NCBI GenBank assembly: GCA_013373595.1
Contig: JABXHO010000096.1
Span: forward strand, 1 to 32,106
From: Flavobacteriales bacterium
GTDB taxonomy: Bacteria; Bacteroidota; Bacteroidia; Flavobacteriales_D; Crocinitomicaceae
DNA: 32,106 nucleotides
Direction: 5' to 3'
Each line of letters opens with the position of its first letter. Positions within the stretch are counted from its first letter, which is position 1. Below, one piece after another: positions 1 through 11,102 of this stretch. A program made the translations under genes and the position numbers. Under the pieces are notes generated by a model. The model made no database searches. It worked only from the letters and a program-made list of their open reading frames with translations, and was not told where the DNA came from.

Positions 1-804
1 AACTTCGAAGGTGGTTGTTACGCGAAAACAATCGATTTGTCGCAAGAGAAAGAACCACAAATCTTCGATGCAATTAAGTACGGTGCAATTTTGGAAAACA
101 TTGGATTCAAAGATGGATCATCTATTCCAGATTACACGGATTCTACAATTACGCAAAATACACGTGTTTCGTACCCGATTTATCACATCGATAACATCAT
201 GAAACCATCAGTTGGACCAGCTCCAAAGAATATCTTCTTCCTAACGGCAGATGCATTTGGTGTGTTACCTCCAATCTCAAAATTGACAAATGCTCAAGCG
301 ATGTACCACTTTATGTCGGGTTACACAGCGAAAGTAGCAGGAACGGAAATGGGAGTAACAGAGCCTCAAGTAACATTCTCTGCAGGATTTGGAGCGGCAT
401 TCTTGCCATTGCACCCAGCAAAGTATGCTGAATTGCTAGGAAACAAATTGGAAGGTTCTGATGTGAACGTTTGGTTGATCAACACAGGATGGTCCGGAGG
501 ATCATTCGGTGTCGGTAGTCGAATGAAATTGTCGTACACACGTGCAATGATCACAGCTGCCATGGAAGGTAAATTGGATAACGTAGAGTACCAAACACTT
601 CCTGTATTCGAATTGGCAATGCCAACTTCATGTGAAGGTGTTCCTTCAGAAGTGTTGAACCCAAGAGATACGTGGACAGATAAAGCTGCGTATGATGATA
701 CAGCAAATAAATTGGCTTCGCAGTTCGTTAAGAACTTCCAGCAGTTTGAAGCTGAATCAAGTGACGAAATCAAATCTGCTGCTCCGAAAGTAGAGGTGGC
801 ATAA
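1..804 (+). CDS. pckA: Phosphoenolpyruvate carboxykinase (ATP), C-terminal part
   Basis: This enzyme interconverts oxaloacetate plus ATP with phosphoenolpyruvate, CO2 and ADP in the cytoplasm, the entry step of gluconeogenesis. The gene is cut by the left window edge; the last 267 residues are present, about half of the usual 530-540. Seen: the opening segment NFEGGCYAKT, then NTRVSYPI, FLTADAFGVLPPISKLT, a GYTAKVAGTE-type segment, FSAGFGAAFLPLHP and INTGWSGGSFGVGSRMKLSYTR, all in the order known for ATP-type PEPCK. The P-loop (GLSGTGKTT) lies upstream of the window. E. coli has Cys in FSACFGAAF where this protein has Gly. The C-terminus ends in a short charged tail. A strong hairpin terminator follows, so transcription ends here. 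Confidence 0.96.
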   Translation, partial: NFEGGCYAKTIDLSQEKEPQIFDAIKYGAILENIGFKDGSSIPDYTDSTITQNTRVSYPIYHIDNIMKPSVGPAPKNIFFLTADAFGVLPPISKLTNAQAMYHFMSGYTAKVAGTEMGVTEPQVTFSAGFGAAFLPLHPAKYAELLGNKLEGSDVNVWLINTGWSGGSFGVGSRMKLSYTRAMITAAMEGKLDNVEYQTLPVFELAMPTSCEGVPSEVLNPRDTWTDKAAYDDTANKLASQFVKNFQQFEAESSDEIKSAAPKVEVA

Positions 805-824
805 TTTGAATCATATACTTTTGA

Positions 825-862
825 AAATCGCTCGTCCCAATTTGGGGCGAGCGATTTTTTTT
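825..862 (+). terminator. Rho-independent terminator of pckA
   Basis: The 10-bp arm AAATCGCTCG at 825-834 pairs with CGAGCGATTT at 848-857. The stem is extended by TCCCA/TGGGG with one G-U pair around a 3-nt loop. A run of eight T follows the stem (855-862). It sits 21 nt after the pckA stop codon. Confidence 0.93.
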
Positions 863-947
863 GATGTGTATACTTTATCGTACATTTCCATCATTCTGGT
901 TTGTAGTGCATTTAAATCTTGTGAAATTGCAAGAAAAAAATAGCACT

Positions 948-2504
948 ATGATAAGATTTATACTTTTTTCGATTGGCGTCTCTTTGATTTCTCAGTCAAA
1001 CGCCCAAGTAATTTCACAAGCACTTCTTGATCTGAATAATGTTGAAGCCATGGTAAATGATGGGGGCGTATTCTTCAATGATCATGGAAATGCCGATCCT
1101 GGATACGAAGTTCCAAAAGGATCTGGATTGAACGCAATTTTTGCCTTGGCCTTTTGGTACGGAGGAACGGATGTAAATGGTCAGTTGAAGCTTTCAGCGC
1201 AGAAATACGAAAACCTGACGGATCAATTTAAAGGGCCACTTTCGACTGATGGCACCGCACAAGCGTCAACTTCAAGTGCATGGGCAAATCAAGCATTGTT
1301 TTCCGTTACACAAGAAGAGATTGATTATCATCTGGCGAATTATATGACTCCAGGGTACCAACCGAGCTCCGCAATTGCCAATTGGCCAGCTCACGGTGAT
1401 GTTTCAGTTCAAGAGGATTTTTATTTAGCTCCATTTGTGGATTCTGACGGAGATGGAATTTACAATCCTATGACGGCGGATCATCCATGTATTCGAGGAG
1501 ATAAAGCGATTTATGTCATTATGAATGACAAAGGCGATCTTCATGCTTCGGGAGGTGATCCAATAGGACTCGAAATGCACTATATGTTTTATGAATATGT
1601 TGGAATTCCCGAGATCGAGAATACAACGTTTGTTCACCTAAAAATAATCAATCGTGGAGTACAAACCCTAAATGATTTTAAGGTGTCAACGTTCTTAGAT
1701 GCCGATCTTGGTTTCTTCGGAGATGATTATTTCGGTTCCGATGAAAGTCGAAACATGATGTTTTTCTACAATGGAGATAATCTGGATGAAGATAATGCAG
1801 GGACTCCAGGATATCAAACGGCACCTCCAGCTATTGGATTGGTTTCATTAGCGAACGACTTTGAATCCATCGGAATTACAGATGCGGGCTCTACAGCTCC
1901 TGAGTTTTGGTCGAATATGAACGCAAGAAATGCAAGTGGAGCGTTATGGGAAGATCCAGTAACCATGACTCCGACTAACTTCATGTTCCCTTCAGATCCT
2001 GGAAATGTTTCGCAACCAAATTCAGAAGTGACCTTGGCTAATGCTCCTGGAGATCGAAAAGGGATTGCAAACATCAACTTGGGAACGTTGGTCTCATTTT
2101 CGGAGTATACATTTGACTATGCGGTTATTTACAATCGAGAAGCGGGAGGAGACAACATTCAGAATGCAAGTGGATTAAAGAATGTGGCGGATGCCGTTCA
2201 AGATTTCTTTGATACTACGTTCGTTGATGATTGTTTATTGCAAACGGCAGCTATTGATGAATTGGAGGAAGTGAATTTCTCGATTCATCCGAACCCATCA
2301 GTAGGGGAATTTGTCATTGCATTGGGAGATGATTTTACAGATGCAAGCGTGATGATTTCCGATCTTTCAGGAAGAGTTGTGATGCAAGAGAAAGAGTTGA
2401 ATTCGACAGAAACGCTTATCCAATTGGATCAACCTTCGGGAGTTTACCTTGTTCACTTAACGAGCGATGGAAGAACAACTGTGAAGCGAATGGTATTGAA
2501 CTAA
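948..2504 (+). CDS. T9SS-exported protein with C-terminal sorting domain
   Basis: A secreted protein of 518 residues and unknown function. The ATG at 948 is chosen because it directly starts a signal peptide (MIRFILFSIGVSLISQSNAQ, likely cut after Ala19); an upstream in-frame TTG at 861 lies against the previous terminator and would bury the signal. Residues about 440-518 form a type A T9SS sorting domain: the HPNPSVGEF start, a DLSGR-like turn, a GVYLVHL strand and the final KRMVLN. This domain is known to direct passage through the type IX translocon and is then cleaved. The middle part has DSDGDGIYNP, a calcium-binding-type loop also seen in thrombospondin type 3 repeats. It probably ends at the cell surface or in the medium. 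It appears monocistronic, between two terminators. No catalytic motif was recognised. Confidence 0.88.
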   Translation: MIRFILFSIGVSLISQSNAQVISQALLDLNNVEAMVNDGGVFFNDHGNADPGYEVPKGSGLNAIFALAFWYGGTDVNGQLKLSAQKYENLTDQFKGPLSTDGTAQASTSSAWANQALFSVTQEEIDYHLANYMTPGYQPSSAIANWPAHGDVSVQEDFYLAPFVDSDGDGIYNPMTADHPCIRGDKAIYVIMNDKGDLHASGGDPIGLEMHYMFYEYVGIPEIENTTFVHLKIINRGVQTLNDFKVSTFLDADLGFFGDDYFGSDESRNMMFFYNGDNLDEDNAGTPGYQTAPPAIGLVSLANDFESIGITDAGSTAPEFWSNMNARNASGALWEDPVTMTPTNFMFPSDPGNVSQPNSEVTLANAPGDRKGIANINLGTLVSFSEYTFDYAVIYNREAGGDNIQNASGLKNVADAVQDFFDTTFVDDCLLQTAAIDELEEVNFSIHPNPSVGEFVIALGDDFTDASVMISDLSGRVVMQEKELNSTETLIQLDQPSGVYLVHLTSDGRTTVKRMVLN

Positions 2505-2557
2505 TATTATCATGATATGGTAGGGAGTTTTACATAGTTTACTCCCACTATTCACGG

Positions 2558-2585
2558 AAAGACTGCTTTAACGAGCAGTCTTTTT
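2558..2585 (+). terminator. Rho-independent terminator, possibly bidirectional
   Basis: Perfect 10-bp stem AAAGACTGCT (2558-2567) with AGCAGTCTTT (2574-2583), 6-nt loop, and a run of five T at 2581-2585 on the plus strand. It ends the T9SS cargo gene. Read on the minus strand it could also stop the operon whose last gene ends at 2665, although the T tract is shorter there. Confidence 0.88.
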
Positions 2586-2664
2586 GCTTATATAAACGTA
2601 TGACGTTCAATATTGAAAGATACCGATACGTCGAGTTGGATTTCCTTTCGGATCGTTCACAAGG

Positions 2665-3585
2665 TTACAAATGAACCATCAAGTAGCGATACAACTCAAC
2701 CATACACATCATATCGTGTTTGAAGACTTTTTCATCTGGTGTGTGCACATTATCTTCAGGAGCACCAATAAAACACCAATCCATCGGTAAATCGGAATGT
2801 TGCAATACACCGCCGTCACTACCACCCGCTGATTCAACTTCCAATTGGTAGTCGACACCTGATTCCTGTGCGAGTTTGATGATTCTGTTCAAATATGAGC
2901 GTCTCGGAAGTCCTTTGTCACGCATGGAAATGGCAACACCGCCTCCATGTTTCACTCCATTGGTCACCCATGTGATATCTGAAATCAAATTTTGAATGAG
3001 GCCATATTTCTCGTAGAGATAGCGCGCACAAAATCCAACAGAGTTTCCTCCGTGTTCTTCGTAGGTGGAAAAGACAATGGCACCATCCTCCAATGTTTCG
3101 GCTACTTTGAGTGCGTTCCAAACACCTAAACGGTTGTCCATATAGGGTGACTGAACGAATTCCTCCGTTTCTCTAAAGTTCGGTTTGAAGGTGAGGAGTG
3201 TTCCTCGGTCAAGCACACGATCTGAAACATATTGAATACTTTGTTCTTCATCGGAATCGATCACGATTAACTCGGTTTCAATTTCACCTTGACTATCCGC
3301 ACCCACAAGTTGCATTCCGTCAACTGTACGAGGTCCGCCCACTTTAATCAACTCTTTTCCATACCCAACGGAAAAACCGATGCTATCCATGTGGGCATAA
3401 ATCGCCGTTCGTGGATTTCCGAAAATGAGAATCAAACAGTCTTGAAACCCTTTTCCATACACCAATTGGGGTTGAACCTTCCAATTAGGAGAATTCAATT
3501 TTACGTAGTCAATGATAAAATCTCTCATTGGCGCCTCATCACTTGCGGCTGCTCGAATCTCCACTAATTTTTTTAATAAATCCAT
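2665..3585 (-). CDS. M42-like zinc aminopeptidase
   Basis: Probable cytoplasmic zinc-dependent aminopeptidase of the M42 (FrvX/PepA-glutamyl) type, 306 residues, somewhat shorter than the usual 340-360. Motifs match the family in order: YAHMDSIGF (His65, Asp67), the YMDNRLG segment (Asp150, bridging ligand position), STYEEHGG (Glu176/Glu177, general base and ligand), Asp203 in the ISDITWV segment, a GGSDGG segment at 254-259, and HTPDEK (His281). These residues would bind two metals. Substrate is unknown. It is the last gene of a four-gene operon; its ATG shares one base with the TGA of the preceding yigZ gene (TGATG), suggesting translational coupling. No signal peptide. An M20 or M28 peptidase is the alternative, but the SDGG and EEHG context fits M42 best. 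Confidence 0.82.
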   Translation of the reverse strand: MDLLKKLVEIRAAASDEAPMRDFIIDYVKLNSPNWKVQPQLVYGKGFQDCLILIFGNPRTAIYAHMDSIGFSVGYGKELIKVGGPRTVDGMQLVGADSQGEIETELIVIDSDEEQSIQYVSDRVLDRGTLLTFKPNFRETEEFVQSPYMDNRLGVWNALKVAETLEDGAIVFSTYEEHGGNSVGFCARYLYEKYGLIQNLISDITWVTNGVKHGGGVAISMRDKGLPRRSYLNRIIKLAQESGVDYQLEVESAGGSDGGVLQHSDLPMDWCFIGAPEDNVHTPDEKVFKHDMMCMVELYRYLMVHL

Positions 3586-4199
3586 CAGTACTGTCCAATT
3601 ACATCAATATTTACTGTGTCCAGCGCACTCAACTCAGCTTTAATTTCCTCAGCGAATTTAAGGCTTAGATTTGTTTTTATCGTACAACTTATTTCGAATT
3701 CATGCTCGACCATTTCCAGTTGGTGTTTTTTGATGAGGTTCATCACGGTTGGCATGTCGGCATATTCAAAGCGAATGTTTACCCATTCAAATACTTCTCG
3801 TTCCACAATCTTTCCGGCGAGAATGGCTTCCTTCGCGCCTGTTCGATACGCGTTGATTAATCCTCCAACGCCAAGTTTTGTTCCACCGTAATAGCGCAAA
3901 ACAATAATCAGAACATTGGTCAATTCAAACGATTGCAACTGTCCCAAAATAGGTGCTCCAGCTGAGTTTGAAGGCTCGCCATCATCGTTTGCACGGTATT
4001 CATCTCCATTCAATCCAAAGCGGTAAGCGTAGCAAAAATGACTTGCCTTGGGGTGTTCAGCGCGAAGTGCCTCCAAGTGTTCTTTTGCTTCATCTGCATT
4101 CGAGCAGGGGAGGGCCACACCGATAAACTTCGATCCTTTTTCCGCATAAAAGCCTTCAGATCGTTTGCTTAATGTTTGATATGTCGCGATTTCTCCCAA
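3585..4199 (-). CDS. yigZ: YigZ/IMPACT family protein (UPF0029)
   Basis: A 204-residue protein of the IMPACT/YigZ family. Residues about 50-130 hold the family signature: FCYAYRFG, then EYRANDDGEPSNSAGAPIL, then VLRYYGGTKLGVGGLINAYR. The C-terminal third (about 135-204) fits the DUF1949 ferredoxin-like domain that follows in bacterial YigZ. The eukaryotic IMPACT relative regulates the GCN2 kinase; the biochemical role of the bacterial protein is not settled, with nucleic acid or ribosome binding proposed. It lies 12 nt after the SRPBCC-GyrI gene and overlaps the M42 peptidase start by one base, so all three are probably co-transcribed. Confidence 0.93.
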   Translation of the reverse strand: MGEIATYQTLSKRSEGFYAEKGSKFIGVALPCSNADEAKEHLEALRAEHPKASHFCYAYRFGLNGDEYRANDDGEPSNSAGAPILGQLQSFELTNVLIIVLRYYGGTKLGVGGLINAYRTGAKEAILAGKIVEREVFEWVNIRFEYADMPTVMNLIKKHQLEMVEHEFEISCTIKTNLSLKFAEEIKAELSALDTVNIDVIGQY

Positions 4200-6159: not shown

Positions 6160-6471
6160 ATGGATAAATTGACACTGAACCTGATTAATCAACTCTTTGA
6201 AATTGAACGAAAATTGACATCGAAAAAAATCGATGTAGCCGATCGTAATTTGGAGCGAATCAAGCACGATTTGGAAGCCAATAATATCAAAGTGATCGAC
6301 CCGACAGGTGAAAAATACGAAGATACTCGAACCGATTGTCAGGCAAATATTGTGGGAGAGTTGGGGCGAAATATGGTCATCACCCGAACGATGAAGCCGA
6401 TTGTGATCGAAAATGGTCCGAATGGCATGGAGCTCATTCAGAGAGGGACAGTAATTGTGGAAAAAGTATAG
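6160..6471 (+). CDS. Small GrpE-like partner of divergent Hsp70
   Basis: A 103-residue cytoplasmic protein. The first half is a charged amphipathic helix (residues about 1-45, likely coiled coil). The second half is predicted beta-rich, ending in a segment like VIENGPNGMELIQRGTVIVEK. That order, helix then a short beta unit ending in xGxVxVEK, resembles a much shortened GrpE nucleotide-exchange factor (GrpE is normally 180-200 residues). The resemblance is weak by eye; the context is stronger, since its stop codon TAG is separated by one base from the ATG of the Hsp70 gene. Role inferred: release of ADP from, or regulation of, that Hsp70. An 8-bp TATCTTCG at 6134-6141 is a near match to the -7 promoter box. 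It could instead be an unrelated hypothetical. Confidence 0.72.
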   Translation: MDKLTLNLINQLFEIERKLTSKKIDVADRNLERIKHDLEANNIKVIDPTGEKYEDTRTDCQANIVGELGRNMVITRTMKPIVIENGPNGMELIQRGTVIVEKV

Positions 6472-6472
6472 G

Positions 6473-8974
6473 ATGAAGACAATAAATTATGCCATCGACT
6501 TGGGAACAACCAATTCCCTAATTTCAAGAAATGACAACGGTGAAGTGCGTGTGTTCAAAAATCCATTTGGACAACGAGAAGAATTACCTTCTGTTGTTGG
6601 ATTTAGGGGAGAACGTATTTTAATTGGTGATAAAGCGCTTGAATATTTGGAGAAAGATCCCGGAAATGTTTTTGGAGGATTTAAACGAAAAATGGGGACG
6701 GATGAAAGTTTCTGGATCGAATCTCAAATGCGTTCCATTTCCGCCATTGAATTGTCTTCCATTGTATTGAATGAACTCAAAAACTTTGTTCAAGACGATA
6801 AGAACATCACGCAAGTCGTAATTACAATTCCTGCTTCGTTCGACACGGTTCAGTCGAATGCAACAAAGAAAGCGGGATACGAAAGCGGTTTCAAGAATGT
6901 TGTTCTCTTGCAGGAGCCAATTGCGGCGTGTCTGGCGTTTGCAAATGCGCACAAAAACATCGATAAAAAAGGAAAATGGTTGGTCTACGATTTAGGTGGA
7001 GGAACATTTGATGTAGCCATTGTGAATATCGACGATGAAGAACTCAAAGTAATCGATCACAAAGGAGATAACTACCTCGGAGGGATGGATTTCGACAATG
7101 CCATTGTAGAGAAAATTCTCCTTCCAAAAATCATTTCAACGGAACGTTGCGAAACGTGGAAAGAAAAGGCCGAGCAGAAAACGAGTGCGTTTCAAAAGTT
7201 GTACTACGTTTTGTTGAATAAAGCGGAGACGATCAAGAAGGAATTATCCACTTCTGAGGTGGCAATGCTCGATCTGACGATTGAAAATGATGGAGGAGAA
7301 GAGGTTGACCTCTATTTCGATGTCACACGCGATCAATTCAACGAAGTGATTTCAGAAAAAGTCAATTACTCGATGGACATCGTAGATGATCTTCTAAAAG
7401 CGAATAACCTGCAAATTTCCGATATCAAGCAGGTTGTTTTGGTGGGAGGAAGTACGCTTGTCCCGCTCGTAAAACAATCGATTGAAACCAAATTGGGAGC
7501 TTCCGTCAATCAATCCGTGGACCCAACGAATGCAGTGGCCGTTGGAGCGTCACATTATGCTGGGACGAAAATTGCGCAAGCCGAAGAAGTGGTGGATAAA
7601 GAAGAAGTAGTTCTCAATCAAGAGCTTCCATTTGAGGTCGAAATGTCTTACTTGAAGGCGTCAAGAGAACCAAGTGAAATGGTCTTATTGAAGTTTTCGG
7701 GTGATTTTAATGGTGTTTACTACCGAATCGTTCGTTCTGACAAGGGATTTGACAGTGGATTGAAGCCTGCAGGACAGAAAAGCATGGAGATGGTCAACCT
7801 CGTTCCAAATGTGGCGAATCATTTCGAAGTGCTGTTTTTTGGAGCGGATCAATCGCCGATTGTGGGAAGTACGAAGAATTTAATGATTGTTCATGGACAG
7901 TACAATGTAGACGGTCAGCCGCTTCCGAATGATATCTGTCTTGAAATCGACGATTTTGATTACGACCGAACGAAACTTGAAATTGTCTTTAAGAAAAATG
8001 ACATCCTTCCACTGAAAAAGCGATTGTACAGAGAGTTATCGAAAACAATCGTGAAATCGGGAGAAAATAGTTTGGTCATTAACGTAGTAGAGGGAGATGG
8101 ACAGAGTTCTCCATCTTCTAACCAGGTGATCGGATGCATTGAGATCCATCCAGATATGTTGGATTTTGATTTGATCAAAGGAACTGAAGTAGAAATTGAT
8201 ATTGATGTTTCCGAATCAAGGGATTTGACCGTCAGTGTCTTCTTACCGATGACCGATCAGGAATTCAAAGAAGTGTTTAGTCCAACGTCTAGAAACGTTA
8301 GTATTAGTCGCTTGAATGAAGAGCTTCGTATCTTGTCACGAAAAGTTGAAAAGGAATTCAATTCACTTCAATCAACAGAAAACTACGAGCAGCTTCAAAA
8401 AGTAGCGAACATGCGAAAGGAGCTGATTGAGATTAGTCATGAGTTGGATACGGCTGAAAAGTCGATGAATTCCGACTTAAAATATCAGTTAGAAGAACGA
8501 AAACGTCGTGTTGCACAGAAATTCGACACGATGGAAAGCGAAGGCAAAGGCTCTGAGGAAAAATCGAGGTATTTGGATGAGAAGGGACATACACTTGAAT
8601 TGTTCGAGAAATACCCAGAAATGGATCGTAAATACCGTGCTCAATTCAATCAAATTGTCGCTTCAGAAGAAGACATGATGAAATCAGACATGGCGCATTT
8701 TGCTCGCGTGAAGGCAGATGAACTGAGAAGCTTGAACAGGCAAATGGGATGGGAGTCGAATGAACACGTTTCTTCGATTTACTTCTCGTACAAACTTTTT
8801 TATGCGAACGATTTTACCGATCAGCAAAAAGCCAAAAAGTTGATAGAAGCTGGCGATCAGGCCTTGGACAATAACCGCATGGATGAAGTGAAGATGGTGA
8901 TTAATCAGTTACATCTTCTGCTACCTGACAACATGAAGGACAATGTCTCGATTAAGGGAACAGGCTTGGGATAG
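6473..8974 (+). CDS. Divergent Hsp70-family chaperone with inserted domain
   Basis: ATP-dependent chaperone of the Hsp70 superfamily, 833 residues versus about 640 for DnaK. Start ATG at 6473 puts IDLGTTNS at residues 8-15; the alternative GTG at 6455 overlaps the upstream gene. ATPase domain (about 1-367): phosphate-1 IDLGTTNS, then VVITIPASFD and LLQEPIAACLAFA, phosphate-2 YDLGGGTFD (172-180) and adenosine loop VLVGGSTLVP (about 322-331). DnaK has a short hydrophobic linker after this; here about 105 residues (367-473) of beta-type sequence intervene. Residues about 473-605 match the beta-sandwich substrate domain (LPNDICLEI, then IPL-like ILPLKKRLYRE and LVINVVEGDG). Residues 605-833 are long charged helices, longer than the DnaK lid. 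This is not the housekeeping dnaK. Probably forms an operon with the 6160 gene. Confidence 0.9.
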   Translation: MKTINYAIDLGTTNSLISRNDNGEVRVFKNPFGQREELPSVVGFRGERILIGDKALEYLEKDPGNVFGGFKRKMGTDESFWIESQMRSISAIELSSIVLNELKNFVQDDKNITQVVITIPASFDTVQSNATKKAGYESGFKNVVLLQEPIAACLAFANAHKNIDKKGKWLVYDLGGGTFDVAIVNIDDEELKVIDHKGDNYLGGMDFDNAIVEKILLPKIISTERCETWKEKAEQKTSAFQKLYYVLLNKAETIKKELSTSEVAMLDLTIENDGGEEVDLYFDVTRDQFNEVISEKVNYSMDIVDDLLKANNLQISDIKQVVLVGGSTLVPLVKQSIETKLGASVNQSVDPTNAVAVGASHYAGTKIAQAEEVVDKEEVVLNQELPFEVEMSYLKASREPSEMVLLKFSGDFNGVYYRIVRSDKGFDSGLKPAGQKSMEMVNLVPNVANHFEVLFFGADQSPIVGSTKNLMIVHGQYNVDGQPLPNDICLEIDDFDYDRTKLEIVFKKNDILPLKKRLYRELSKTIVKSGENSLVINVVEGDGQSSPSSNQVIGCIEIHPDMLDFDLIKGTEVEIDIDVSESRDLTVSVFLPMTDQEFKEVFSPTSRNVSISRLNEELRILSRKVEKEFNSLQSTENYEQLQKVANMRKELIEISHELDTAEKSMNSDLKYQLEERKRRVAQKFDTMESEGKGSEEKSRYLDEKGHTLELFEKYPEMDRKYRAQFNQIVASEEDMMKSDMAHFARVKADELRSLNRQMGWESNEHVSSIYFSYKLFYANDFTDQQKAKKLIEAGDQALDNNRMDEVKMVINQLHLLLPDNMKDNVSIKGTGLG

Positions 8975-9010
8975 GTGTTATCCAGCGCAAATTGGTCGAT
9001 CAAAAGCAAA

Positions 9011-9030
9011 GGAGATGAAATGTCATCTTT
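9011..9030. terminator. Weak hairpin between convergent genes
   Basis: AGATGA (9013-9018) pairs with TCATCT (9023-9028) around an AATG loop, in the 68-bp gap between the Hsp70 gene and the convergent membrane-protein gene. Flanks are A-rich on one side and TTT on the other, so it might stop transcription in both directions, but the stem is only 6 bp. Confidence 0.3.
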
Positions 9031-9042
9031 CAAACTCTTACA

Positions 9043-10641
9043 TCAATAACTGTAATTTACATAACTCCCTCCTTGGAACAGTTGATAGTTGTCCTTGAGG
9101 ACGAGATCCTTGGTTCTGTTGCCGTTCAACGAATAGTACTTTTTGGTTAGAACAATATCTTGTGGGCTAACAAGAGCAAAATAACCATTAAACTGTATGT
9201 CTTGGGTCTTCTGGGTCCGCGGAGATCGATGGGGGTGTGTAATCGTTTTCGAGTCGCTCCATGCTTTGCCAGAATAGATGAAAAAACATGCGTCATCAGC
9301 GGCCTTAAAATCAATTGTATTTCCTGCTTTTACAAAGTGTGAAGTGAGTCCGTCGCCGTACCACATAATCAGAATAGCATCCGATTCGGTTTCGTTTGCA
9401 AGGGTGTAATCGAATTCGATAGCAGAAGGTGGAAATGCCGAAAGAATCTTGGGATTCCCTACCGTACTAATTGGGTTTTTCTCATATCGAGATAGACCAA
9501 TAGAGGCGATCACGTTATGATGTAAATCCAAAAAGGAATTTTCATCGAAATCTACTGTGCCAGGGCGAGTTGGAGGAACACTTCGATAGGTTTGTGTGTT
9601 CGGTTGCACTTGTGGAACAGGTTGCGGCTGCGTTTGTTGGTTCCCGCGCTGTTGTCGAATTTGTTCTCGAATACGTTCGAACATTTCTTGCTGAGATTCA
9701 TTACTTGGAAGGTCGTAAGAAGACGAACTGCCTGAATCGCATCTGCTGGCAACCCTGAAAATCATGAGGATTCCTACGATAACTCCAATAATTACACGCC
9801 ATGCTGTGTTCGGGTTGTATGAAGTCGATTCTTCCTTGGAGCGACGATAGACTTTGCCGTTTTCAGCAATTAACTGACGGAGATGTTCTGAGCAATTAAG
9901 TGTCAATAATTGATTCGTGATATCAACCAAGTTTTTCCCTCTGTCGGGTTTGTGTTGACACATGACCATGAAATTGATAATACCCGCAGCTAACACGTTC
10001 GGAAGATTCGGATAAAACGTTGAAACCGTGTTGACGCATTTGTAAAATACGCCATAACTCAAAAATGCGGTGTCTTTTTCAGGATAACGTTTGCTTTTGG
10101 AAGCGAGCATTTTCAGTCGCTCACTAAGGGTGATGCAAAAGTTATTCAGCTTCCGAAATGCATGAACTCCGTCGATAGGAGTCAGTAATTTAGTGAAGTG
10201 CATCACTTTGTCGAGTTCCCAGAAACTCGATTTAAGAATCACTTTCGACATCATTTTATCAAAGGAAAAAGTCAAATATGGAGAAACAAAACGGGTGAAG
10301 TCATCCCATTCTTCTTGTGTGTCAAAATGGATGAATTGTTGTTTGGTACTCTGTGTTGTGACATTCGCATGCTCTAAAAAGTGAAGCAAGACTGGATGGT
10401 CAAAAATGGCCTGGTGATACGCTAAATTGGATATGTTCTCGAGTTGGTCGAACAATTCTATAACATCGTTCTTTCCAAGTTCCTTGTCCCCCAGCATTGT
10501 TGTTTGGGTGTCAGAAATTTGAATTTCCAACAACAAACGTTTTCGTTCCATCCGAAGCTTCACAGGGTCTATATTCTCCGTTGAAATACCTAGAGATTCA
10601 AAGGTGCGGATGGGAGATTGGTATGCAGGGTAAGTTGTCAA
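9043..10641 (-). CDS. Single-pass membrane protein facing the Hsp70 gene
   Basis: A 532-residue protein of unknown function. Layout: a helical N-terminal domain (1 to about 265); one membrane segment at about 281-298 (WRVIIGVIVGILMIF); a Gln/Pro-rich linker with RQQRGNQQTQPQPVPQVQP; and a beta-rich C-terminal domain (about 370-532). The first 80 residues (TFESLGIS, then KLRMERKRLLLEI, then NDVIELFDQLEN) have the spacing and hydrophobic pattern of a degenerate J-domain but no HPD motif. With no signal peptide, the N-terminal half is probably cytoplasmic. Start is TTG at 10641: there is no ATG before residue 30, and a perfect TATCTTTG box lies 19 nt upstream. It converges with the Hsp70 gene, so it is not in the same operon but may belong to the same system. 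Function uncertain. Confidence 0.82.
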   Translation of the reverse strand: MTTYPAYQSPIRTFESLGISTENIDPVKLRMERKRLLLEIQISDTQTTMLGDKELGKNDVIELFDQLENISNLAYHQAIFDHPVLLHFLEHANVTTQSTKQQFIHFDTQEEWDDFTRFVSPYLTFSFDKMMSKVILKSSFWELDKVMHFTKLLTPIDGVHAFRKLNNFCITLSERLKMLASKSKRYPEKDTAFLSYGVFYKCVNTVSTFYPNLPNVLAAGIINFMVMCQHKPDRGKNLVDITNQLLTLNCSEHLRQLIAENGKVYRRSKEESTSYNPNTAWRVIIGVIVGILMIFRVASRCDSGSSSSYDLPSNESQQEMFERIREQIRQQRGNQQTQPQPVPQVQPNTQTYRSVPPTRPGTVDFDENSFLDLHHNVIASIGLSRYEKNPISTVGNPKILSAFPPSAIEFDYTLANETESDAILIMWYGDGLTSHFVKAGNTIDFKAADDACFFIYSGKAWSDSKTITHPHRSPRTQKTQDIQFNGYFALVSPQDIVLTKKYYSLNGNRTKDLVLKDNYQLFQGGSYVNYSY

Positions 10642-10703: not shown

Positions 10704-11102
10704 ATGGAAGAGCAAAGAACGTATGTTTTGTATGATGGTGATTGTGGATTTTGTAATCGCTCGGTTGCTTTTATTTTGAAGCACGAGCGCGATTCAAGTA
10801 TTTACTTTGCCGCAATTCAATCATCGTTTACGCAAGAGTTGTTTAAGAAGAATGGATGGGAAGCTCCCAATTTGAGCACTTTCTATTTGATTCGAGATGA
10901 TATTAAGTTTGAGCGATCTTCCGCAGCATTCGAGGTACTGAAAAACTTGAAGGCTCCCTATCGCTGGCTACGCATTTTTCGTTTTTTACCGAGAAGTTTT
11001 ACGAATTGGATGTACGACCAAGTAGCAAAACGCCGACAGCGAATTTCAAAAGGATTTTGTGTGATGCCAACACCTGAGCAGCGCGAACGCTTTATTCGAT
11101 AG
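10704..11102 (+). CDS. DCC-family thiol-disulfide oxidoreductase-like protein (DUF393)
   Basis: A 132-residue soluble protein of the DUF393/DCC family. The defining motif is at the N-terminus: YDGDCGFCNRSV, with Asp11, Asp13, Cys14 and Cys17, a thioredoxin-like CxxC. Later family features are a STFYLI strand, SSAAFEVL and the LRIFRFLPRSFTNWMYD segment. Members are presumed to be redox-active thioredoxin-fold proteins, but substrates are unknown. It is divergent from the 532-residue membrane-protein gene (62 bp apart); TAAATTCG at 10690-10697 is a one-mismatch -7 box giving a very short leader. It seems to be a single-gene unit ended near the hairpin at 11136-11168. Confidence 0.93.
   Translation: MEEQRTYVLYDGDCGFCNRSVAFILKHERDSSIYFAAIQSSFTQELFKKNGWEAPNLSTFYLIRDDIKFERSSAAFEVLKNLKAPYRWLRIFRFLPRSFTNWMYDQVAKRRQRISKGFCVMPTPEQRERFIR

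Follow-up and report, generated by a model that had tools for sequence, protein, structure and literature searches.

A divergent Hsp70 encoded beside a GrpE-like protein and a membrane protein with a J-like head in some Bacteroidota

The J-domain is a four-helix structure that carries an HPD motif between helices II and III, and the passages of PMC7289447 on its action treat HPD as the invariant core and R167 of the Hsp70 as the key receptor. In the part of PMC8215388 that describes the contacts of DnaJ, D35 bonds to R167 and Q378 and H33 bonds to L391 of the linker; the same source, in its passages on the GrpE signature, describes this signature as deleted in HscA and absent in Escherichia coli HscC. 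Hsp70 systems with dedicated duties have also been reported. Myxococcus SglK (MXAN_6671) is a second Hsp70 that has a second GrpE homologue, MXAN_6672, at the neighbouring locus number (from the relevant parts of PMC8265645 and PMC11019930). Cyanobacterial DnaK1–DnaJ3–GrpE is a dedicated Hsp70 system for envelope work, serving type IV pili and polysaccharide according to the abstract of PMC9239167.

Here, we describe a locus in a window of 32,106 nucleotides (contig JABXHO010000096.1 of a Flavobacteriales bacterium; the window is the whole stretch of DNA that was analysed) in which a 103-residue GrpE-like protein, a divergent 833-residue Hsp70 and a 532-residue membrane protein with a J-like head are encoded side by side. 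The locus shares a second Hsp70 and a second GrpE-like partner with the SglK system. It differs in that SglK belongs to the PRK00290 type of DnaK and can rescue a dnaK mutant of E. coli (PMC8265645), and the passages on SglK describe no HPD-less J-like partner. The cyanobacterial system is likewise of the DnaK type and works with DnaJ3 and GrpE, and the abstract of PMC9239167 mentions no gene trio of this kind. The Hsp70 system described here is real and conserved, and no existing name for it was found. The trio is undescribed in the open-access titles and abstract starts that were searched, subscription papers and bioRxiv lying outside that literature.

Gene layout and conservation of the trio

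The features of the locus are collected in Table 1. An initial sequence-only reading of the window had proposed a 1 nt spacing of the first two genes and a convergent third gene, and the ORF coordinates confirm both: the GrpE-like and Hsp70 genes are separated by base 6472 alone, and 68 nt lie between the Hsp70 gene and the J-like gene. The 833 residues of the Hsp70 are counted from the ATG at 6473, the mechanically delimited ORF beginning earlier at a TTG (6455). The J-like ORF has a TTG start, which is the first start codon of its frame in the window (10641); locus L042 apparently also has a TTG start, judging by the leading Leu of the translation. Predicted promoters and terminators were not clearly more numerous than in shuffled sequences (5 versus 10.3 and 5 versus 4.2, respectively). 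The J-like gene is adjoined by a gene for a DCC1-like thiol-disulfide oxidoreductase (10704–11102; PF04134, E = 7.2e-23), which by eye is absent from the 25 most widespread neighbour clusters listed.

Table 1. Features of the Hsp70 locus, in window positions
Feature	Position	Strand	Basis
GrpE-like nucleotide-exchange factor (predicted activity), 103 aa; two helices and beta-wing, without the long N-terminal helix	6160..6471	+	
Divergent Hsp70, 833 aa	6473..8974	+	PF00012, E 1.5e-63; NBD clade apart from DnaK/HscA/HscC, support 1.0
Hsp70 nucleotide-binding domain (NBD), about aa 1-370	6473..7582	+	D8, T11, K70, E171, D194, T199 kept; R151, R167, N170, Q378 replaced
Insertion of about 110 aa at the NBD/SBDbeta junction, limits approximate	7586..7918	+	Alignment with 12 DnaKs; conserved columns in eight relatives
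SBDbeta-like substrate-binding domain, limits approximate	7919..8272	+	hhalign to DnaK SBD
Hsp70 C-terminal region, presumed helical lid and extension, by eye	8273..8971	+	Alignment of relatives
J-like membrane co-factor (putative), 532 aa	9043..10641	-	ORF; family of 110 detected proteins
J-like head, no HPD	10369..10641	-	AlphaFold2 model, profile links
Helical bundle of the J-like protein, N-terminal of the span	9796..10368	-	AlphaFold2 model; generic helical matches only
Predicted single membrane span, about aa 283-301	9739..9795	-	Hydropathy; K/R 5 on N side versus 0 on C side within 20 residues
J-like C-terminal region beyond the span, with family-specific domain of about 100 aa	9046..9738	-	Comparison among long relatives

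A scan of a genome collection returned 252 pattern matches and 230 relatives; the best 80 of the 230 were kept as named loci, which are therefore biased towards close relatives. The closest relative among the matches listed is Fluviicola sp. NORP8 (77% identity). The GrpE-like gene lies directly upstream of the Hsp70 gene on the same strand in 79 of the 80 named loci, with a median gap of 6 nt; in the single exception, L089, the Hsp70 is broken and starts 204 nt away from a locus end. A J-like gene is found at most 600 nt from this pair in 72 of the 80, where it is convergent (49 loci), co-directional downstream (14), divergent upstream (8) or co-directional upstream (1). The remaining eight are L046, with a more distant J-like gene, the short loci L089 and L116, and five loci in which no J-like neighbour is seen. 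By comparison, the runner-up neighbour family within 7 kb is present in 12 of the 86 loci entered, a count that omits L015, L035, L105 and six distant loci. No fixed fourth partner gene was found in the tight clade (neighbours within 7 kb, 86 loci); across the same loci the flanking genes differ from lineage to lineage, look by eye like ordinary chromosomal genes for the most part and include no constant effector. In L032 (11587–16127) and L035 the trio sits downstream of a gliding/T9SS-looking gene cluster, the genes of which, judging by their protein starts, are presumably gldK–gldN.

Across Bacteroidota, the GrpE-like profile was matched in seven of 390 genomes, with the Hsp70 adjacent in all seven, and the C-terminal half of the Hsp70 was matched in 13 of 395 (seven close, E = 2.3e-90 or better, and six distant). 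For the J-like profile the count was 11 of 390: the Hsp70 is present in seven of these, three are orphans and one is a marginal match. The 395-genome and 390-genome samples overlap, without genome-by-genome pairing. By eye, no such Hsp70 occurs in the 15 kb around each of the three orphans, and their genomes are absent from the Hsp70 and GrpE-like matches. The 532-residue protein was found in three of 150 genomes of the order, the window's own included; in one of the others (L015) the J-like gene occurs alone, and in the second (L016) all three families lie in a single operon, J-like first, then GrpE-like, then Hsp70. The L016 operon (315–4130) continues with TerB (PF05099), a 778-residue protein and a 156-residue protein with a match to the PADLOC model mREase_II. 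J-like genes near which neither the Hsp70 nor the GrpE-like gene was seen lie at L015 7295–9811, L122 7317–8651, L123 7121–7969 and L124 7151–7999, and the J-like family may also serve an independent function. Close relatives carry the system patchily, in 2 of 15 genomes counting the window's own.

The 103- and 532-residue families thus do not occur mostly apart from this Hsp70 (7 of 7 and 7 of 11 with it), and the neighbourhood survey (79 of 80 for the pair, 72 of 80 with the J-like neighbour) bears out the earlier grouping of the three genes. The GrpE-like, Hsp70 and membrane-protein genes are a real unit, conserved beyond chance.

The distant-clade loci L036–L041 (genomes G324, G352, G289, G292, G160 and G362) contain a related, richer module with a distant Hsp70. 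In these loci a GrpE-wing (by eye) either stands alone or forms the C-terminus of a coiled-coil membrane protein, and it is accompanied by a J-domain-like protein that often starts near NP[FY]; several also encode a fusion of a protein kinase with an AAA+ ATPase (L041:2371–4155 by Pfam, the others by eye) and TerB-like genes.

One reading of the trio is that it is an anti-phage or conflict module in which the Hsp70 is a threshold device, like the HSP70–GrpE–DnaJ theme of the GAP1-N2 systems. Conflict modules of this composition are described in a section of PMC7159879, the distribution is patchy as given above, and the PADLOC mREase_II match downstream in the L016 operon has E = 1.2e-9. However, none of the three window proteins has a PADLOC match at E up to 0.1, the GrpE-like/Hsp70 DNA is unmatched in the plasmid collection, the C-terminal half of the Hsp70 is unmatched in phage records and viral contigs, and the flanks vary by lineage as described above. 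We regard a conflict module as very improbable. The PADLOC, plasmid, phage and viral-contig searches lend no support to a defence-island, phage or plasmid origin.

Sequence and predicted structure of the three proteins

On other contigs, the genome (4.69 Mb, 99.92% complete) also encodes a separate housekeeping set, with DnaK (858 bits) and GrpE (156 bits) of the canonical kind and six J-domain ORFs, all with HPD. The sequence-only reading had suggested that the local proteins may be unrelated to that set. This part has to be revised, as the Hsp70 is a distant DnaK homologue and the GrpE-like protein is probably related to GrpE, the fold of which it shares.

The ATPase motifs noticed initially in the Hsp70 correspond to a PF00012 match of 215.5 bits (gathering cut-off 20.6) over aa 8–386. 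The protein misses the cut-offs of the DnaK families (NCBIfam TIGR02350, 218.1 versus 822.55; PRK00290, 222.3 versus 648). In an alignment of 87 Hsp70s of the family that includes E. coli DnaK, from which the broken Hsp70 of L089 is excluded and in which two genomes are counted doubly (L031/L112 and L035/L120 look like the same genomes), the ATPase residues given in Table 1 are intact in 87 of 87, T199 being the Thr of GGGT. The HPD-reading residues R167, N170 and Q378, and R151 as well, are replaced just as consistently. R167 is never Arg (Val in 48, Leu in 15, Tyr in 11, Phe in seven, Ala in two, Thr in two, Gln in one and Ile in one), and N170 is Gln, Q378 is Tyr or Phe and R151 is Ser, Thr or Ala in every sequence; 12 of 12 DnaKs, as well as E. 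coli DnaK, HscA and HscC, retain all four. No use was made of the D211 column, in which every other row has a gap; the columns for L391 and D393 fall within the insertion and depend on the alignment. A tree of the NBD, built from 108 rows and 392 columns, splits the window family together with the distant clade from DnaK + HscA + HscC with a support of 1.0, HscA and HscC being represented by one E. coli sequence each; the support of the family itself is 0.99, and the six distant sequences do not form one clade. The Hsp70 therefore looks like an active ATPase that belongs to a separate clade.

Beyond the NBD, the alignment with the 12 DnaKs places the insertion at the expected site of the NBD–SBD linker. 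The region that follows resembles SBDbeta: hhalign to the DnaK SBD scores 29.9, which is reached by none of 40 column shuffles (maximum 21.4), at an hhalign probability of 9.35. A search of PDB sequences with the profile of the Hsp70 C-terminus (eight sequences) gave no DnaK match. The stretch of the GrpE signature loop has 37–41 aligned residues in 80 of the 87 Hsp70s and 35–36 in seven, compared with 40 in the window protein and 41 in 12 of 12 DnaKs. R or K at position 55 together with E267, which form a salt bridge in DnaK (K55–E267), occurs in 77 of 87, position 55 being Leu in the window, and the R56 position of the second cleft salt bridge of DnaK is never Arg in the 87. The cleft salt bridges are thus only partly kept, which leaves the need for an exchange factor unproven.

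These features could also be those of a signalling or cytoskeletal ATPase that is not a chaperone, its SBD-like part merely scaffolding the membrane protein. The linker is replaced by the insertion and both R151 and R167 are lost, so classical NBD–SBD allostery may be absent. The SBDbeta resemblance found by hhalign speaks against this alternative, as does the neighbouring GrpE-like gene, since a dedicated GrpE fold would make sense mainly with a client-release cycle; we consider a non-chaperone ATPase distinctly unlikely.

For the 103-residue protein the predicted fold is clear and the sequence resemblance is weak. Pfam does not list PF01025 for it at E up to 1 (gathering cut-off 25.8 bits), the NCBIfam GrpE model NF010737 scores 14.2 bits (E = 0.029) against a cut-off of 164, and a search of PDB sequences with the GrpE-like profile (28 of the 87 proteins) returned no GrpE. 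The same profile scores 24.7 against 14 canonical GrpE sequences, with a shuffle maximum of 23.8. The AlphaFold2 model, compared using Foldseek/VIA, has the GrpE fold in its helix-bundle/beta-wing part, as the sequence-only reading had anticipated, although no Foldseek match falls below E = 0.001. The long N-terminal dimerization helix of GrpE is missing, the six best matches aligning from GrpE residue 82–108 onward.

The J-like role of the membrane protein is the weakest link in this reading of the trio. Pfam gives nothing for the 532-residue protein at E up to 1, PF00226 included. An AlphaFold2 model built on 85 homologues has a mean pLDDT of 91.7 for aa 1–306 and contains a head with helices at 10–17 and 26–42, a beta-hairpin at 48–55 and helices at 57–68 and 70–80, followed by the helical bundle. 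In the model, the order of the helices is consistent with a J-domain, with the beta-hairpin at the place expected for HPD; when the 306-residue model was compared using Foldseek and VIA, the bundle filled the matches, and those listed are all generic helical proteins, so that the lack of J-domains among them carries no weight. HPD is missing from the head loop in 110 of 110 members; the letters HPD occur in two of the 110 heads, both at position 70, outside the loop.

The profile comparisons were made with 27 of the 110 J-like proteins, 53 heads (including that of orphan L122), six distant heads and 85 references from 100 listed (103 found). Neither the profile of the 300-residue N-terminal part nor that of the head finds a J-domain among PDB sequences, and the hhalign score of the head against J-domains (12.4) is reached by 18 of 263 real-protein decoys and two of 60 column shuffles. 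The heads of the distant-clade partners (six sequences), on the other hand, match J-domains above 263 of 263 decoys, and heads of the window type match these distant heads over 77 columns, again above 263 of 263. The distant-head profile has 18 PDB sequence matches at E up to 10, and DnaJ is the name of 13 of these (E = 0.087–1.4); the top match is a designed protein (E = 0.0049), and 2cug (mKIAA0962), which we take to be a J-domain, is matched with E = 0.013. As the direct match between head and J-domain fails and the chain through the distant clade holds, J-domain ancestry of the head is likely yet indirect. The sequence-only reading was right in its essentials; joint action of the three products, possibly at the membrane, is a putative part of it.

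The hydropathy scan predicts a membrane span in 100 of the 110 members. Among the 92 with a single span, the number of Lys and Arg residues is higher on the N side in 54, higher on the C side in 24 and equal in 14, an asymmetry that mildly favours a cytoplasmic head. The C-terminal domain of about 100 residues occurs in one to three copies in 53 of the 64 members with a long C-terminus, the window protein included; it has no Pfam match over the cut-off in four examples, and none at E up to 10 in the window protein.

An alternative reading separates the pair from the membrane protein: the GrpE-like protein and the Hsp70 would be the machine, the 532-residue protein would be a membrane receptor, an adaptor or the main client with no relationship to J-domains, and housekeeping proteins of the DnaJ/CbpA type would provide the stimulation. 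The failed direct profile comparisons and the orphan J-like genes suit this arrangement, and in Edaphocola an HPD-bearing J-protein, presumably CbpA-like, adjoins the trio (L031 11320–12513, L105 and L112), with a small gene in L031 that we take to be CbpM-like. However, an Hsp70 without R167 and Q378 lacks the residues contacted by the HPD of DnaJ (PMC8215388), and the decoy-controlled match of the tight heads to the distant ones, together with the 13 DnaJ names among the 18 PDB matches, points back to a J-like head. We judge a J-independent membrane protein to be unlikely.

A proposed membrane-tethered Hsp70 machine

Taken together, the analyses suggest that the trio is probably a dedicated, self-contained Hsp70 machine of some Bacteroidota that is tethered to the membrane and orthogonal to the housekeeping system. 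The Hsp70 would be an active ATPase that binds its client through SBDbeta, and the 103-residue protein would be its private nucleotide-exchange factor, the beta-wing and short helices of which would open the nucleotide cleft and reset the Hsp70. The 532-residue protein would be its private J-like partner, the head and bundle of which may bring the Hsp70 to the inner membrane, hold it there or gate it, with the C-terminal domain of the J-like protein on the far side. As R167, N170, Q378 and the linker are gone from the Hsp70 and HPD is gone from the head, no cross-talk with housekeeping DnaJ-type proteins is expected; this two-sided loss, of HPD in the one partner and of its receptor residues in the other, speaks for a private contact. 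The computations establish the identity of the genes, their conserved linkage, the predicted GrpE fold, the ATPase residues, the replaced HPD-reading residues and the predicted membrane span; we infer a physical complex, the exchange and stimulation activities, the orientation in the membrane and the orthogonality.

A more specific version is offered tentatively, as a possibility that we would put at somewhat below even. J-coupling would have been rebuilt on both sides, such that the HPD-less membrane J-like protein drives the Hsp70 via another contact, in which the inserted domain takes part; the orthogonal cycle would be gated from across the membrane by a signal or a client and reset by the minimal, possibly monomeric GrpE. 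A natural family that has dispensed with HPD and R167 and kept the ATPase residues, an SBDbeta-like domain and a GrpE fold would show whether an Hsp70 can be driven by another contact. It would also make an orthogonal Hsp70 machine and a minimal exchange factor available to researchers, and it points to a function in proteostasis or the envelope, so far unstudied, in some Bacteroidota.

Comparison with known Hsp70 systems

The GAP1-N2 theme resembles the window trio in that Hsp70 and GrpE genes are linked to a gene for a DnaJ-bearing FNIII protein and the systems are described as acting near the membrane (from the part of PMC7159879 on this theme). It differs in that, in the same text, these systems occur mainly in actinobacteria and firmicutes and include GTPase and FNIII components, whereas no recurrent fourth gene was found for the window trio.

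E. coli HscC with DjlB and DjlC is similar in combining a specialized Hsp70 with dedicated J-proteins of 475–483 residues that, by eye, have a hydrophobic tail. The E. coli djlC gene is convergent to hscC, which is the commonest arrangement here (49 of 80), and DjlB and DjlC have HPE in place of HPD. Unlike the window Hsp70, HscC keeps R167, N170, Q378, L391 and D393 and has 556 residues without the insertion. A passage of PMC8215388 suggests that HscC and GrpE do not interact, and the annotation of the 12 kb around hscC includes no grpE-like gene.

The DnaK–DnaJ–GrpE system shares with the trio its overall composition of an ATPase, a GrpE-fold exchange factor and a J-like partner. In contrast to that system, the linker and the HPD-reading residues of the Hsp70 are replaced in the window trio, the exchange factor is short and the partner is a membrane protein with an HPD-less head.
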